NCBI GenBank assembly: GCA_034670405.1
Contig: JAXDDX010000013.1
Location: forward strand, 379,001 to 443,000
Source: Hoplostethus atlanticus
Lineage: Eukaryota; Chordata; Actinopteri; Trachichthyiformes; Trachichthyidae
DNA: 64,000 nucleotides
Reading direction: 5' to 3'
Shown piece after piece: positions 1,460-37,719 of this stretch. A model generated the notes under the pieces. It saw only the letters and a program-made list of their open reading frames with translations, made no database searches and was not told the DNA's origin. The position numbers and the translations under genes were made by a program. Positions within the stretch are counted from its first letter, which is position 1. The number at the start of each line of letters is the position of its first letter.

Positions 1460-4400
1460 TTAATCGGTTTGTTCAGGCATTGAGTCCAGAGACTGGGCTG
1501 CTGCTCCCTCCTCCGTGTGTGTCTCCATGTGTTTCTTCAGCTTGGTTTTGGAAGTGAAAGTTTTCATACACAGCTCACAGTGTGGCTTCAGTAGCTTAAT
1601 GCCTGAATGGCTGCGCTTGTGTCGCGCCAGCTCTGAGGAGCTCTTGAATTTGAGCTCGCACATGGGGCAGGGATAGGGTCTTTCCCCTGTGTGAATACGT
1701 TGATGCAGATGAGCCTCGCTGAGGGTGAGGAATGTCTTCTCACAGTGGCTACAAGGGAACGGCCTTTCACCTGTGTGAATGAGATTGTGTCTGGTCAGCG
1801 CATACGGTTTGGTGAAGCCTTTCCCGCAGTAGGTGCATGGGTATGGGCGGACGCCGGTGTGGGAGAATATATGCTCTTGCTGGGTTTTTTTGCTCTTGAA
1901 GTGCTTGTTGCACTGAGTGCAAGAATAGGGCTTGTCGTCCACGTGGGACCTGTGGTGCTTTGAAAGCTCTCCCTGGGAGAGAAAGCTCTTGCCACACTGG
2001 GAGCAGAGGAAAGGCTTCTCCCCTGTGTGCATCCTCTCGTGTCGGGCCAGGATGGCCACCAGAGTGAACCTCTTTGGGCAGTGGGAGCACTGGAATGGGC
2101 GCTCACCCGTGTGAACGTGGAGGTGCTTCATAAGCATGAAGCGGAGGGAGAAGCGCTTGCTGCACTGGTTGCATTGGTAAGGACGCTCCCCTGTGTGGGT
2201 GGCTAGGTGCCTCTTCACATCGGACCTGCGAGTGTACGTCTTGTCGCAATGTGGACACTTAAACTGGCGCTTGACTTGATGGGTCTGCCGGTGCTGGGAG
2301 CGTGCAAGCAGGGTGTCGAAGCCTTCACCGCACTGCTGACAGATGTAGTGCAGGCTGGCTCCGTGGGACTTCCTGTGCTCAAGTAGCTGAGTGGAAGTGG
2401 GGAAACTCTGGCTGCAAATAGAGCAGATCTGAGGGAGGTGACTCTCTCCGGAGTGAGACTTCTTGTGGTGGACAGTTAAAGCACGGAGGTTGGTGAAGGA
2501 ACTCCCACACAGCCGGCAGGAGAAAGAGATGGCCGCCCCGTGGTGCTTACTCTCGTGCTTGGCCAGATCCCACGAGTGCTGGAAGGTACGGTCACACTGA
2601 GAGCAGTGGAAAGGTCTCTCCCCGGTGTGTGTGAGCTGGTGTCTCCTCACATCTGATGTACGGGTAAACGCCTTACCACACGTTTCACACGTGAGGGCCT
2701 TCTGCTTGCCTTGCGATTGAGGGACATTAGTAGCACTGTCTTTGCTGCTTTGATTATCGAGCTGTTCCACGCTGTCCTGCTCTGCGTTTCCTTCGGGGAA
2801 AAACTTAATTGGTGTAAATATTTCATCGGTGCTGCAGGGAGACGGTGTAAATTCGGCTCCATCTTGCTTTGCCGCCATGAGAGTCCTGCACTCTTCTGTC
2901 CGAACATTTTGCATGTGGATGTGAGGGGAGCTATTTTCATCGCCGTTGTGGAAGGGACACTGTGGGCAGGTGAAGATGATGGAGGTCATTTCCCCAGATT
3001 CACCTACAAAAAAATGTAAAAAAAAAGAAAAAAAGAGTAAGTGACATATGTGGATTTGGTCTCGAAGGCAGGATTGCCTGGTCATTCAAGATGTCTTTCT
3101 TTGTCATGTCAAAATCATTTCAAGGCCTTTTTGCTTACCTGTACTGATTCCTTTGATTGCTATCACAGACGGGGCAAATGATAAATCAGCTTTGTTCCTG
3201 GTGAAATAAAAATCATGGTAAATTTTGTATTGCATGACTCAAATTTGAATTACTATGAAAGAAGAACGTATTATACGATCAAAATACATTTTCAGTTCTC
3301 CGTTATTTTCTTTTGACGAGTTCTTGAATTTGCGCGTCTCCTGCCAACTTGTTGAAGTCTTCATTTGTAGACGGGTAGACCTGCGCACGCTAGCTGAGGA
3401 GGTAGACTGTTGTGCCTGACAGACAGGGACTTCACAGGCGGCATCTGTCATCTCTTGGCCGCCACACGGGGACTCATCTTCATCTCTCAACTGTGTGTAA
3501 GAATCAGAGTTGGCATTGTTCTCTACGCCACCAGGGTGCGCGTCTACCTCCGTTGGCTCCTGCACCTCTTCCACATTTCCCGCTTGGTTGTCGATTTGTT
3601 CGCCTGCATCACACGCTGCGTCCGTTGCACTTTCCGTCTCCATCTCATCGTTCAGAGACTCAATATTTGAATCATTAACCTTGGCTGTCGGTACGTCTTG
3701 ATCGAGGGCCTCCTTCCTTAAAGCAAACGTCTTTGTCAAAGTCTCCAGTGCTTTGGCAATATCCACAGTTTCGCCCGTTTCTTCTGCCTTTGCGCTAATA
3801 GACTCGATGTCATCTTCACTTACAGCCACCATCACTGCTTCGGAGAAATCTGTATGGACTTGTACCTCCTCGGTTGACTCAATTATTTCTTCGCCCACCT
3901 CAGATGCTCCAACTTCCACTTCAGTGTAGACAGTTACTACGCTATACTGGTCTGCTTCGACGAAGGCGATGGGATTCAGTATATTAGCGTAGTTGTGCAT
4001 CGAGTCGAGTCCGACAGACATAGCTGTTTTTTGGGAGGGAGGGATGGATAAAGCGGACATGATGCAGCTGCCAATGGTGGACGATGGGCCATCTATCAAA
4101 TGAACAACAACATAAAAAACAAGAAGTCATAAAAATGCAGTTCCTCGGAAAAACAGAAAAGCTGTGACTACACTATATTTCTGTGACACTGTATGGCAAT
4201 AAAAATGCCCTTCGGGACACTTACATGGCATTTTCAAGAGACCTGAACTCTTATGGTGCTGGTAGATTAAGCTCAGCTCTTCAGGCGTGAACTGAACACA
4301 TTCCTCCAACACCAAGGGAGCAGAGCCCAGCCATGCTGCAGTCTAGCAACAGAGCAGAATCACTTTTATCACCAAGTCAGAACACTACTTTAAACTACTT

Positions 4401-6010
4401 TATGTTTTCCAATGATCGAACAGGCGGAAAGCCCTGTGAGACAAGTTTTGCTTCATGTTGCAAAGGAAAAAACAACCTAAGACATCCGGATGGTCTCACA
4501 ATACGAACAGTTGTACAATATTGCTGAATACCTGTTTTAGGTCTGGTACGGGAAACAGCTTCTCCAGTTTTGAGAGCAGCTCCCACAACAGTAAATGCAG
4601 AGCAGCATCATATCGTGGCCCATATTCCACTGGGAACACCTCCTGTAAGACAACTATCATTAGTTTTAAATAGCACTGCTTTTAAGCTGTATCTTGAGAT
4701 TAATTTTGAACAACACCTATTTGTGCTGAAGGTCAGTTATCAAGACTATTCTCAGACAAACAATCAATCTGAACAAAAAATGATTCAAATGTGTCTAACC
4801 TGGAAGAAGTAGGCTCTCTCAGATGGATCTTTCAGCAGGCTTTGAACAAGCGCAATGAAAGTGGATTCTGTTGTTTCCACTTCTGCATCCCTGTGCTGCG
4901 AAAGATTGCACTGATGTCATTAAATGGGGACCTATCTCATCATTATCACTTTGAAGCGTGCATGCACAAATCAACAGATTTAGCATACGTTTTTGTTTTT
5001 ATTCGGTTTCAAACTTGTATCCCTGCGCTGTGCTTACATCTGTGTGTGCAGAGGTTATCGGGAGTCTGTCCAGGTAGCTCTGGATCACTTGAGGGTCAAC
5101 AGAGCCTCGACTCGAATCTTTGCAGAACTCCAGAATCAGCTGAAACGCAAACAAATCTAGTCACTGCAAAAACAAATACAGCAAAATTAACTTATTAAAG
5201 ACTCAAACGCTGCAATACCAAATTAGAATGGTTCCTCACCCTTGCTCTTATACCCAGAATGAGCTGGGCTTTCTGTCTGTATGTTATCAGTCCAGGGACG
5301 GCCTCTGTCACCATGAAAACAAACTCCTGAAGCTTCTCATAATTCATCACATCTTTCTGCTTTGCCAAGTGCCACATAGCAGCAGACAGTAGCCGCAATG
5401 GGGGCACCAGGAAGCGTAGAGATGAAATGGGGAGGCCTGGATCTGAAAGAGATAAGGTGATTGTGTAATGTCAGAGATGGTGGATGGAGGGCAGCACTGA
5501 GCCCGTTCAGAAAGCACTTCAGCAGTTTAGCCACCCACTCCACAGCAACATCACACTCCTGAATTTAACAACTACCTTTAACCTTCTCTAAACCTTGCTC
5601 ACGATGAAGATGTAACAACTAGCTGTTAATGTGCCAGCCCAGGGCAATGGTACAGAAAATCTACATTTCTATATTCTATGTGAAGGCTAGCCATAAACCT
5701 ATGAACTAGTACAATTGCTGAAGCAAATAGTTCATAGGCGCTTTTAATTTGCAGCCAAATATCTGCTGCCGTTTCAGAGATTATTGCTGTAAATTTGAAT
5801 AATTGCCATTAATTCTAGAGATAATGTGGCCAGTCAAACTCCAGAGGGGGAAACAACATTTTAACAGCTGATGGGTTCACTAGTTCCAGTAAATAGACTG
5901 GACCCGCTAACTGTCTGGCTAACACAATCACAAAATGCATTGCGTCCGAGCGGGAGCACATTATTCAAATACATACCAATTATTTTTTCAATTGACCCAC
6001 GAGCCTCCAT
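1460..6010 (-). CDS. TIN2-like N-terminal domain + C2H2 zinc finger protein (about 1023 aa)
   Basis: Nine exons (complement): 5977-6010, 5240-5442, 5038-5139, 4800-4895, 4532-4642, 4225-4342, 3288-4092, 3139-3197, 1460-3003; the total of 3072 nt closes in frame. ATG 6008-6010, TAA 1460-1462. Residues about 12-205 resemble the TIN2 N-terminus (Pfam TINF2_N): LRLLSAAMWHL, then VPGLITYRQK beside human APGLVRYRHH, then EYGPRYDAALHLLLWELLSKLE. Residues about 222-509 are an acidic low-complexity linker with a basic RRSTRLQMK patch. Residues about 615-1010 hold 14 canonical C2H2 fingers, most joined by TGERP-type linkers, after one degenerate CPQC unit near 522. TIN2 N-terminal domains bind shelterin partners and C2H2 arrays bind DNA, so a nuclear DNA-binding adaptor is inferred. 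The donor of the large exon (3288, AT|GTATTT) is the weakest junction. No gene symbol is assigned. Confidence 0.9.
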
Positions 6011-6489: not shown

Positions 6490-6690
6490 TATCAGCTTAA
6501 AGTATGAGTTGAAGCCACAGTTGGAGCAGACAATTGGCTTCTCTCCAGTATGTTTGAGCATGTGTCTCCTCAACGGAGTGGTGCTGTTGAAACGTTGAAA
6601 CCCATAGGAGTGTTCTCTTGTGGTTATCTGTTTGTGCACCGTAAAATAACAGGACTGGGAAAATATTTTCTTGAGGTAAACTTTTGTTCT
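6490..6690 (-). pseudogene. C2H2 zinc finger relic
   Basis: Minus-strand translation gives a decayed run of about three fingers. IFSQSCYFTVHKQ matches the second half of one finger. FNSTTPLRRHMLKHTGEKP is a near-perfect finger tail plus the canonical TGEKP linker. IVCSNCGFNSYFKL starts a third finger. Expected cysteines before the first two finger tails are lost, and the frame then runs into non-finger sequence. No supporting exon boundary is visible. It is probably a remnant of a tandem zinc finger copy lying upstream of, and on the same strand as, the intact gene. Confidence 0.6.
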
Positions 6691-7339: not shown

Positions 7340-9043
7340 ATGGACGAGGACGGGTTGCCAATTGTGGGTTCTGGAGTTGATCTTACCAAGGTTGGTGCCA
7401 TACGTTAGCTAATTGTTACCTAGCTAGCAATCCTGCCTACTAACAGTGGTCGTTTTGCTCAGCAGACAAAATTATTCTGCACGGTTGTTTTCCCATCAGG
7501 TCCCAGCTATTCAACAGAGAAGAGTCGTCGCCTATCTCAACCAGTTTGTTGTGCACACAGTCCGCTTCCTCAACCGCTTTTCCACTGTTTGTGAAGAGGT
7601 ATGTCAGCTCAAGAATGACATCCAGCTTCTTCTACGGTTTCCTTTACCTCTTAGTTAGGTCACTGACAAACATTTCTTTGATGCAATTCAATTAATTAAC
7701 ATGCTGTCAAACGTCCCACAGAAACTTGCAAACATATCTCTTCGGATACAACAGATTGAAACTACCCTAAGCATTTTGGAGGCGAAGGTGGGTTCTTCAG
7801 CTTCTCAAGTCATTTGATCTGCTATTTATGCCACTCTATGTTCATGGCATGCTGGCATGCACTGTGGATACTCACTGTGTATGGAATATTCTCCTGGTCT
7901 GTGCAGCTGTCCTCTATCCCCGGTCTGGAAGATGTCAAGTTAGATGGGATCAGTCAGCGACAAACTGCTGAGGCCAATGGACCGACAGTCAATCAAAGCC
8001 AAACAACTGATCCATCTTCAGGGTCACTGCCACCTCCAGAGGTACATGCACATCTTGTATATGGACATAGATAATCACGTAATGTCGTACAGTGACACTC
8101 TATCTCTAAAAACAAAACAAAAAAAAACAATGTGTCAAACATCCCTTTTTGTCTCTTTGTCCCATGGTCATGGTTTTGCAGACGTGGGACAATGCCAGCT
8201 GTTAGTTCCAGGAAACAAATGCAGATCTCGAGATACAATGTCTCTGCAGGGTCTCCGCAGGGTGCTCAAATATTGTACAAAATACAAAATTAGGTAGAAA
8301 AACAAAGTAAAGCATAAATCATCATACAACACTTTATTGTGTGATAGGATGATAGTTAGACAACAACCAGGCTAATACAAACCAATAATACTCATAGAAA
8401 TGCAATTCATTATAAACAAAAGTATACAATGAAATTCCCACAAATTCCTCAAGTATAAAACCTACAAAAGTGTAGCAGAGATTCAGAGCACTAAAATAAA
8501 GTACCAAATCCAGTCTTCATATTCACACCACTCTTTGATCTACATATTCCTGTGTTGCAGACCCCTCAGAGTGTACCAGAAGCTGCTCCAGAGCAAAAAG
8601 CAGCAGTCGTTGCAGAGAATATCATGACAGTGGCCAAGGACCCACGATATGCCCGGTACCTGAAAATGGTGCAAGTGGTGAGTGTACCATAACACCTCCT
8701 TATACACCATAAAAAAAACATCTCCGTGTGTTCCACTGTATCCCAATATATATCTGTTTCTTCTTTCACAGGGCGTCCCAGTTATGGCAATAAAGAATAA
8801 AATGGTCATGGAGGGTTTGGATCCCAACTTGCTTGAGTGAGTGTTCAAGTCACGGTCCTTCTTCCAAATAATTCCAAATAACCACAAATAATCACAGTGA
8901 TTAAACCAACCAATAATAATTCCCTCATTACTGATGACAGCACACCAGATGCCCCCTTGCCTGATGGAGGAAAGAGGAGCACAGAGGACCAAGATGGTGA
9001 TGATGACGGCAGCTCTGGCAGCGAGTCATCTTTCAGCGACTGA
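7340..9043 (+). CDS. washc3: WASH complex subunit 3 (CCDC53)
   Basis: Seven exons: 7340-7390, 7500-7598, 7722-7787, 7907-8041, 8561-8677, 8772-8836, 8941-9043; 636 nt, 211 aa. All junctions are GT-AG and phases close. The product begins MDEDGLPIVGSGVDLTK and continues VPAIQQRRVVAYLNQFVVHTVRFL, nearly identical to human WASHC3. A coiled-coil segment follows (KLANISLRIQQIETTL), then a low-complexity middle, the conserved NIMTVAKDPRYARYLKMVQVG block and an acidic tail ending SSFSD. WASHC3 is a core subunit of the pentameric WASH complex, which activates Arp2/3 on endosomes for retromer-dependent sorting. The gene is divergent from the zinc finger gene and convergent with dram1. Confidence 0.98.
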
Positions 9044-11210
9044 CCTGCCTCCTCTGTCCTCATCAGCGCTAAGCTTCCTGTAAGAGGGCCAGCCATCGTT
9101 GCTGCTGTGCTTCTGTAGCTCCGTACTGGGAAAGAGCACTAGGCAGCAGTGTGCCTTGCAAGCAGTACTAATGATGAAGTAGATGCTCAACTGAAAGCCC
9201 TCATCTCGGTGTGGATGTAGGCACCTAATGCAGGAAAATATGTGCAGTCTGTGTTCCCCCTATATGTATTCTACCATGGCGACCCACCACACTAAAATAT
9301 TTGCGAAAATATTTCTATTTTTACTCTAAATGGTCTCCTTAAGTAAATAGGGAAGGTGTTGTCGGCTTGATCTTGAATGTATTCTGAGTCATATTTCCTG
9401 GAAACAATGGCGGAAACAATGGTTTTGAGCTGAAATGTCAGGGATACCTCTAGACCCGCCTATGTGTTATGACTTTGCACTTCCTACCACAACGGTTGGA
9501 AAAACATTATAGAGGAAACACTGTTTGCAATCCATTGCGAAGTGAAAGAAATATCAGTGCGAAAGAGCTGATATGGTCTCGTATTGGTCAATCAAAGATC
9601 TTGTCTTTAATATATCATTGACATTTAGCTTGTGCTCATGTTTCCTTGTTGCAGCAGTAATCAGTAGAGAGTAGCTTTTATACAAAGACTAACATGTAGT
9701 TATTTCCAATCACACTATTTTTACAGTCTAACACCTTTAAAAGAGATTGTCTTAGTCACGTTCGCTCATTGGTTTGGCAGTTCTGTCTGCATTTGTTATC
9801 AGTTCTAGAAAAATATATGAATGTTGGGTGTGAATGTTCATCATGTATGTTGGATGCGTTGAGCGGAAGGGTACAAAAGTCACAAGACCACAGCAAACTT
9901 CATATCTTGGATTGACGCATCCCTTTCTTTTCGACTGGACTTTCAGTTGACTTTCAGTTTCTGTTTCCTCTGCTGCACTGAGGGCTACATCTATGGATAA
10001 TCACCATTATTTGCAAGAAAAGTGTAAATTGCAATATTTGGTGTTGATTACATTGGTCGTACCAAGGGTGAATCCACTTATTTGTCATTGCATCAATCAC
10101 AACTTGTGATCACGTGCAAAAAGAGAAACTGAAGTAGAGAAGCAGTGGCAAAAACAGTTGATTGCTAAAATATAAATAGATCCTCTTTCACCAGATGTCA
10201 CACTGACTGTGAACTAGTGTACGGATGTGTTTAGAAGACCGGAAAGCACTTTGTTTACAAAAGCAAGGAAAATTTTGGATCTGTGAGCTCTGCCTGTAAT
10301 AAACATTCATACATTTTGCTTGAAAAATGTGTGCCTTTCTTGTTCAGCTCAGCAGTGCACCTCAACACGTTCAACAAGTTCACCAGGATAATCTACTGTA
10401 TCATACCATCCTTAGAAAACAGTGCCAATATAATCAAATACAAAAATACTCATTCCATTTTAGATATTTGAAGTGAAAAAGTTTATCTGTGTTCCTGTGA
10501 CCTTGGATTGGTCAGTGTAGTAACAATCACCATATACAGACATGAAATGTTTTTACTCCCTAATCCAAAGTGAGAAGTTACAGCAGGTCAATGGTGCAAT
10601 TTCTGGGAATTAACTGATTGCGTAAGAATAGAAACTTCGGTATGATAGCCTAGACTACATTCTTAGCTCTCTGGCTTCTCCCTTTGGGACAAAGTGGTTC
10701 ATGTTCATCAATGCTGGTGTGTGCCAGAATAGAAATAGAAATAGAAATCTTAAATTGAGGGGTATTCTCATTTAACCACATGTGCGGTGTTCATGTGTTT
10801 GCTGTGTGATTAACTTCTCTTATTACTGGTCACAGGACAGACGGATGTGTGATGTTACATTACAACAGTCACAAGAGCCATATTTCACTGAATACAGACA
10901 GCAATAAGTAATGTTGATGTTACGTTAATTTGTGATTGTACAAAAAGTATCAAGAATAGAGGACCTGGTCAGTTTTCTTCTTTTAACATAACGTCAGTAA
11001 GACCTTAACCAGATACTGATTTCATAAATAACAATGCAAGAAGCACCTATTTTACTAACACTCAGATATGCCAGTGATCATAATACAAAACACAATCTCA
11101 TAAAAAGCCCTGCAGAATACAGTACAGTATGTTTGGGTATAAAAAGCTCAGACGTGTAAAAAAAGTACATTTTTGAAACCGAGAATACAAATATAAAAGT
11201 TTCAGTATGG
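9044..11210. other. Convergent intergenic region: washc3 and dram1 3' ends
   Basis: No coding exon was found in 2.2 kb. The left part is most likely the long 3' UTR of washc3, ending at the AATAAA near 10298. The right part probably holds the dram1 3' UTR on the minus strand; I found no convincing minus-strand AATAAA there. Confidence 0.6.
10298..10303 (+). promoter_or_regulatory. Candidate washc3 poly(A) signal
   Basis: AATAAA on the plus strand, 1.25 kb after the washc3 stop. A T/GT-rich tract (TTTTGCTT...TGTGTGCC) follows within 40 nt. It is the first such hexamer with downstream GU-rich sequence that I noticed in this convergent interval. Confidence 0.5.

Positions 11211-14377: not shown

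Positions 14378-28680
<14,303 letters not shown>

Positions 28681-31814: not shown

Positions 31815-37719
<5,905 letters not shown>

Follow-up and report, generated by a model that had tools for sequence, protein, structure and literature searches.

The closest described relatives of the gene reported here are the telomere protein TIN2 (TINF2) and its zebrafish homologues; papers are cited below by accession. To our knowledge, TIN2 itself carries no zinc fingers and no DNA-binding array. The N-terminal domain of human TIN2 docks peptides of TPP1 and TRF2 (PMC7617103), and the substitutions A15R, F152A and E153A abolish binding to both partners, while a change at W198 weakens it and K160 is irrelevant (PMC8262337). 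Xie et al. (2011) describe three zebrafish homologues that share an N-terminal domain and differ in their C-termini; zfTIN2-1 alone bound TPP1, and the N-terminal domains of zfTIN2-2 and zfTIN2-3, which lack a TRF1-binding motif (TBM), did not co-precipitate it (PMC3032778). Zebrafish Tinf2 is enriched on TTAGGG DNA, tinf2 mutants being reported to develop normally (PMC11846949), and the text of a phylointeractomics study gives no annotated TIN2 in birds (PMC5309834). Here we describe a gene in 64,000 nucleotides of the fish Hoplostethus atlanticus (contig JAXDDX010000013.1, positions 379,001 to 443,000, hereafter the window) in which a TIN2-type domain is joined to 14 C2H2 zinc fingers. We find that it is one of 17 genes of this layout in the genome, and we consider it probable, from sequence comparison, that in this fish multigene family the TIN2-type fold serves as a zinc-finger-associated module that holds another partner while the fingers place it on DNA.

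The gene model runs on the minus strand from an ATG at 6010 to a stop at 1460 and comprises nine exons with GT-AG borders in a single frame of 1,023 residues (Table 1). The exon phases (1, 0, 0, 0, 0, 1, 2, 1) close, in agreement with the predicted nine-exon mRNA of the original prediction, drawn by a model from the letters of the window. When donors were scored with a weight table and ranked against all GT dinucleotides on the same strand of the window, seven of the eight stood at or above the 90th percentile. The Pfam model TINF2_N (PF14973) matches residues 35-182 over its full length (model 1-149 of 149; 178.1 bits, E 1.8e-52, cut-off 29.4), and a search with the N-terminal 233 residues alone is likewise significant at 183.0 bits. 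As a yardstick, the human TIN2 letters returned by the Protein Data Bank (PDB) search score 191.2 bits against the same model. That search places solved human TIN2 (5XYF chain A) at E 1.1e-13, the only other row up to E 1 standing at 0.63, and 44 of 158 aligned positions are identical between the window domain and human TIN2. The domain call made in the original prediction was thus right; of its proposed extent, exons 2-5 stand and exon 6 does not, as exon 5 ends at the last domain residue. No KRAB or SCAN match was found in the window protein at E up to 0.1, and the Pfam cut-offs are reached by TINF2_N and zinc-finger models alone. One 221-residue query gave no relatives among 6 pattern matches in IMG/VR or 73 in GTDB contigs.

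The domain and the fingers are separated by a linker whose exon 7 part is acidic (52 D/E against 17 K/R in 268 residues). Neither F-x-L-x-P nor [FYW]-x-L-x-P matches anywhere in the 1,023 residues, and the F-x-L stretch that lies in the linker is FALRK at 344. Fourteen C2H2 motifs then occupy residues 615-1005; six of the junctions between them, those following fingers 1, 6, 7, 8, 11 and 12, are canonical TGE[KR]P linkers. An acidic linker without the TBM, FALRK being nearest, and an array of 14 fingers had all been predicted, and all are borne out. A degenerate finger-like stretch ahead of the array (about residues 522-541) has a more complete counterpart, by eye, in the paralogue L023 (L and C numbers denote loci and contigs).

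We searched the assembly from which the window derives (633 Mb, 1,161 contigs; window at C13:379001-443000) and found 39 exon-level matches to TINF2_N, all above the cut-off and to be taken as a lower bound; none occurred in 14 control genomes. With the first domain exon as the unit of counting, these make up no fewer than 19 genes spread over nine contigs. C26 holds five and C105 four; C13, C34 and C149 have two apiece, and C31, C67, C95 and C273 have one apiece. In the 10 kb taken for each of the 18 other loci, at least six same-strand finger motifs lie downstream of the domain in 16, the lowest number being that of L025, where the frames are broken. As controls for finger density we took the opposite strand and the upstream portion of the same loci; the opposite strand holds one motif each in L014 and L016 and none in the other 16 loci, and no same-strand motif lies upstream of the domain in any of the 18. 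With the window gene included, 17 of 19 genes thus carry TINF2_N followed by same-strand C2H2 fingers. The original prediction had seen a single odd gene, which is one of these 17. In four of them (L009, L018, L019 and L025) the array is split across several frames, and some of these may be pseudogenes.

The paralogues also bear on whether the window gene is one gene or two. A linker motif near the start of exon 7, [ILVMF][LMIVF]xxL[SIT][ILVMF]PP, recurs in five of the 19 genes (window, L011, L016, L017 and L021). In L017 and L021 this LSLPP-type motif and the fingers share a single open frame (636 codons with 14 fingers and 482 codons with 10, respectively; L017 lies inside the 10 kb of L021, where the fingers of each were separated). 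Twelve fingers recur in the same order in the window gene, which has 14, and in L023, which has 13. It could be argued that a TIN2-like gene ends by read-through of exon 7 at a stop at 3239, that a separate zinc-finger gene follows, and that the fusion is an artefact; the exon 7 donor, AAT/GTATTT, reaches only the 63rd percentile, and exon 9 has, by eye, an in-frame ATG close to its beginning. Against this, 17 of the 19 genes show domain and fingers in the same order and on the same strand. Exon 8 lacks an in-frame ATG, and the only frame in which it stays open is the one continuing into the fingers; of four poly(A)-type hexamers sought between exons 7 and 9, none is present. Mere adjacency would have to explain the layout of the paralogues, the shared frames and the finger order. 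Because motif and fingers share an open frame in L017 and L021 and 12 fingers are shared with L023, we regard two separate genes as highly improbable, and the fusion of domain and fingers in one gene, as originally predicted, as well supported by the comparison with paralogues.

Two loci depart from this layout. L011 is free of finger motifs over its 10 kb and the 10 kb that follow; past the LSLPP motif, and on its strand, it instead carries two Myb/SANT-like domains (PF13837 Myb_DNA-bind_4, E 9.4e-19 and 1.6e-16) to which the splice links are putative. Its weakly supported sister in the domain tree (88/78), L012, has 11 fingers and, 2 to 4 kb beyond them (gene strand 7836-9640), three Myb/SANT-like stretches with weaker matches (E 7.6e-12 to 1.6e-8) that could be part of the neighbouring gene. 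The second locus, L016, shows no same-strand fingers in its 10 kb and a further 2.8 kb (L028), with one opposite-strand motif in each, and has an open reading frame rich in charged residues (by eye). A candidate exon at about 4805-4865 reads FSLFP followed by an acidic stretch, a possible TRF1-docking motif; since L016 holds four FxLxP-type rows, two of them with a stop within the motif, FSLFP may have arisen by chance. Identity to human TIN2 among the 19 fish domains spans 25.0-34.4%, with L016 highest at 34.4% by a small margin, the window domain second at 32.8%, and L017 (32.2%) and L018 (32.1%) close behind. Because it combines this identity with the FSLFP candidate exon and the absence of same-strand fingers, L016 is probably the true tinf2. 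The TBM-bearing zebrafish homologue, zfTIN2-1, lies near tpp1 (PMC3032778); the one TPP1/ACD match listed in the H. atlanticus genome is at C1:19043895-19044335 (G000), in an open frame of 608 residues, and L016 lies on C95.

These observations allow a broader proposal, that the TIN2-type TRFH domain is a portable docking module of fish DNA-binding proteins, both C2H2 and Myb/SANT-like, and that shelterin TIN2 is a specialised member that lost, or never had, a DNA-binding part. As far as we know, mammals keep only the shelterin TIN2 member. We put this forward tentatively and consider it rather unlikely. The domain tree (20 rows and 129 columns from parts of exons 2, 4 and 5) has three well supported inner branches of 17 and is laid out on the coordinates of the window protein, a choice that may bias it towards the window row; some columns are missing in L018 (1,301 N in the locus). 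Because the root and the placement of the window gene are not settled in this tree, the direction of evolution cannot be read from it.

The residues by which TIN2 contacts its partners are partly kept in the window domain. The equivalents of A15, F152, E153 and K160 are L30, W165, E166 and a lysine, W198 lying outside the alignment, and in L016 the same four positions are Val, Trp, Glu and Gln. Of the 19 fish domains, six have the W-E pair (window, L010, L011, L016, L019 and L023) and nine have the glutamate; elsewhere the pair reads, for instance, AG (L012), SQ (L013), LD (L015), SD (L018), RK (L024) or EQ (L026). The retention of W165-E166 means that the window copy could still make a shelterin contact. 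On this basis, and given the second-highest identity to human TIN2, the domain might still bind TPP1 and TRF2, in which case the fingers would bring components of shelterin to sites away from telomeres, or else the protein would itself be telomeric. Several points count against such an adaptor. The window protein has no TBM, and position A15, where an arginine abolishes binding, is a leucine, although this column is weak evidence because L016 itself has a valine there. The TIN2 stretch 50-56, RYRHHER, proposed to face TRF2 S410 (PMC9943673), reads TYRQKAQ and is less basic. Neither zebrafish TIN2-2 nor TIN2-3 bound TPP1 (PMC3032778), and the main text of a zebrafish telomere pull-down names no TIN2-zinc-finger protein, one hit, Zgc:171459, not being identified (PMC11846949). 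We therefore judge an adaptor role in shelterin to be quite unlikely; the recruitment of shelterin partners suggested in the original prediction finds little support, given the missing F-x-L-x-P and the TPP1-negative zebrafish proteins, with the kept W-E pair the part in its favour.

Analysis of selection on the domain, in ten pairs, gives ratios of nonsynonymous to synonymous rates (dN/dS) of 0.12-0.34 over 101-102 codons of exons 2 and 5 only, several with high dS. These low ratios indicate purifying selection, by which the domain is kept. Pairs for this and for the finger comparisons were hand-chosen from the tree and from position and are not independent; finger statistics omit L018 and L025 and use the longest piece only for L009 and L019. 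At the DNA-contact positions of the finger helix (-1, 2, 3 and 6), the nonsynonymous proportion (pN) against that of the rest of the finger is 0.34/0.19, 0.53/0.25, 0.48/0.26, 0.53/0.29 and 0.57/0.30 in five same-contig pairs, and in protein sequence all seven chosen pairs, the window gene not being among them, differ more at contact positions than elsewhere in the finger. Contact residues in close paralogue pairs thus appear to outpace the rest of the finger, a behaviour shared with zinc-finger families whose targets shift. For the window gene paired with L023 the values are 0.30/0.27; contacts there do not outpace the other positions, a hint that the window copy may have a more stable target.

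This pattern raises a narrower form of the favoured reading, whose likelihood overlaps with it, in which the genes are a KRAB/FiNZ-like repressor family directed against transposable elements and the domain recruits a silencing complex. The number of copies, 19 or more, and their grouping on C26, C105, C34, C149 and C13 fit such a family, as do the divergent contact residues and the variety of helices, 164 different ones in 165 fingers taken from 15 of the 17 finger genes. The window-L023 pair, whose contacts do not outpace the rest of the finger, does not fit, nor does the restriction of Pfam matches above cut-off to TINF2_N and zinc-finger models, and we know of no silencing partner for the TIN2-type fold. 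A role in the repression of transposable elements is possible, though on balance doubtful.

We favour the more general reading, in which the window gene belongs to a fish multigene family that uses the TIN2-type fold as a zinc-finger-associated module. The fingers would bind a specific non-telomeric DNA site; the fold, which in TIN2 offers a peptide-docking surface, would hold a partner with a short motif and bring it to that site, and the acidic linker would act as a flexible spacer. The docked partner is most likely other than TPP1. The original prediction had also raised reuse of the fold as a KRAB/SCAN-like dimer module, and it is the module part of that idea that the 17-gene family upholds. 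Several points weigh against our reading. The exon 7 donor is a weak point of the gene model, and in most paralogues the link between domain and fingers is one of order and strand, without splice models. The W165-E166 pair retains two features that TIN2 requires for TPP1 binding. Contact residues of the window gene and L023 are identical in 24 of 48 cases (12 rows, counted by hand), and contact pN is below contact pS (the synonymous proportion) in all six pairs, so that the data indicate freer change at contact residues and do not prove positive selection. The R..H..R helix is GGG-type in the recognition code and is absent from the 165 fingers; this argument for a non-telomeric target is weak.

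We further note the genomic setting of the gene. Its neighbours in the window match CCDC53, Frag1/DRAM, LNR, CDP-alcohol transferase and Ig domains, which we take to be washc3 (CCDC53) and, for the LNR, CDP-alcohol transferase and Ig matches, genes resembling gnptab, chpt1 and mybpc1 respectively, in an order that presumably corresponds to human 12q23. On that order, the window gene is not at the human TINF2 position. The start of washc3, placed by eye at about 7340 on the plus strand with the CCDC53 match further on, appears to be head to head with the window gene about 1.3 kb away, and the two possibly share a promoter region. An orphan C2H2 fragment upstream of exon 1 is probably the relic of a decayed finger gene. 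Elsewhere in the window, CA/AC dinucleotide arrays with 98-100% matches lie at 20990-21071, 21174-21213 and 35058-35179.

Table 1. Features of the window gene and its surroundings, in window positions unless stated otherwise.
Feature	Position	Strand	Remarks
Exon 1	5977..6010	-	Start codon 6010; donor 94th percentile; predicted
Exon 2	5240..5442	-	Opening part of TINF2_N, domain from about 5374
Exon 3	5038..5139	-	TINF2_N; least often recovered exon among paralogues
Exon 4	4800..4895	-	TINF2_N
Exon 5	4532..4642	-	End of TINF2_N (residue 182); W165-E166, equivalent of TIN2 F152-E153
Exon 6	4225..4342	-	About 39 residues past the Pfam domain; matched in most paralogues
Exon 7	3288..4092	-	Acidic linker; weak donor at end
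IMSALSIPP motif	4037..4063	-	Near exon 7 start; coordinates by hand; same pattern in L011, L016, L017, L021
Exon 8	3139..3197	-	59 nt; its donor scores highest in the gene; sole open frame continues into the fingers
Exon 9	1460..3003	-	Zinc-finger exon including stop
14 C2H2 fingers	1517..2689	-	Residues 615-1005; coordinates by hand
Degenerate finger-like stretch CPQCPF...HIH	2909..2968	-	About residues 522-541, ahead of array; by eye; counterpart in L023
Orphan finger fragment	6514..6609	-	Upstream of exon 1, outside gene model; zf-H2C2_2 30.6 bits, cut-off 40
L011 Myb/SANT-like part	about 8614-9730 (L011)	gene strand	Replaces fingers downstream of TINF2_N

Among the matches listed in the open-access literature, none reports a union of TINF2_N and zinc fingers in its title or the opening of its abstract, and no open-access paper was listed for PF14973; subscription papers, supplements and protein databases lie outside this search, and Pfam or other domain databases may already list the architecture. 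The main text of Wells et al. (2023) on metazoan zinc-finger families mentions neither TINF2 nor TIN2 (PMC10547256). TIN2 is usually treated as a telomere scaffold, and if our reading is true, the family would link telomere scaffolds to gene-regulatory factors and extend the known zinc-finger-associated domains (KRAB, SCAN, ZAD and FiNZ) by a new type. It would also supply natural variants for learning which surface residues set TPP1 and TRF2 binding. Fish genes labelled 'TINF2-like' may mix true tinf2 with zinc-finger genes, which matters for shelterin evolution as read from fish genomes.

Compared with known systems, the window protein resembles TIN2 in its N-terminal TRFH-like domain, by full-length Pfam match and PDB homology. 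TIN2 differs in having an FxLxP TBM (PMC7617103, PMC5309834), where the window protein has 14 fingers and no TBM, and L016 is a separate TIN2-like gene. The zebrafish proteins zfTIN2-2 and zfTIN2-3 are like the window family in combining a TIN2-like N-terminal domain with another C-terminus and no TBM, and may be orthologues of its members. Their primer-encoded ends gave no clear match to the window protein: shuffled sequences did as well as zfTIN2-2 in 339 and 309 of 5000 trials, and as well as the start of zfTIN2-3, placed at M34-W35, in 316 of 2000. The main text of Xie et al. (2011) does not state the nature of these C-termini and uses the word 'zinc' zero times (PMC3032778). TZAP/ZBTB48 and other telomere-binding zinc-finger proteins unite fingers with a link to telomere proteins, as the window protein does, whereas ZBTB48 has a BTB domain and binds telomeres through its finger 11 region (PMC11846949) and no telomeric specificity is indicated for the window family. 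Like the KRAB, SCAN, ZAD and FiNZ zinc-finger proteins, the window family shares an N-terminal module, occurs in several copies per contig and has diverging C2H2 arrays. SCAN proteins can also pair with Myb/SANT-like domains. FiNZ is described as confined to cyprinids (PMC10547256, PMC11603059). From all four of these families the window family differs in the nature of its shared module, which is TIN2-like.

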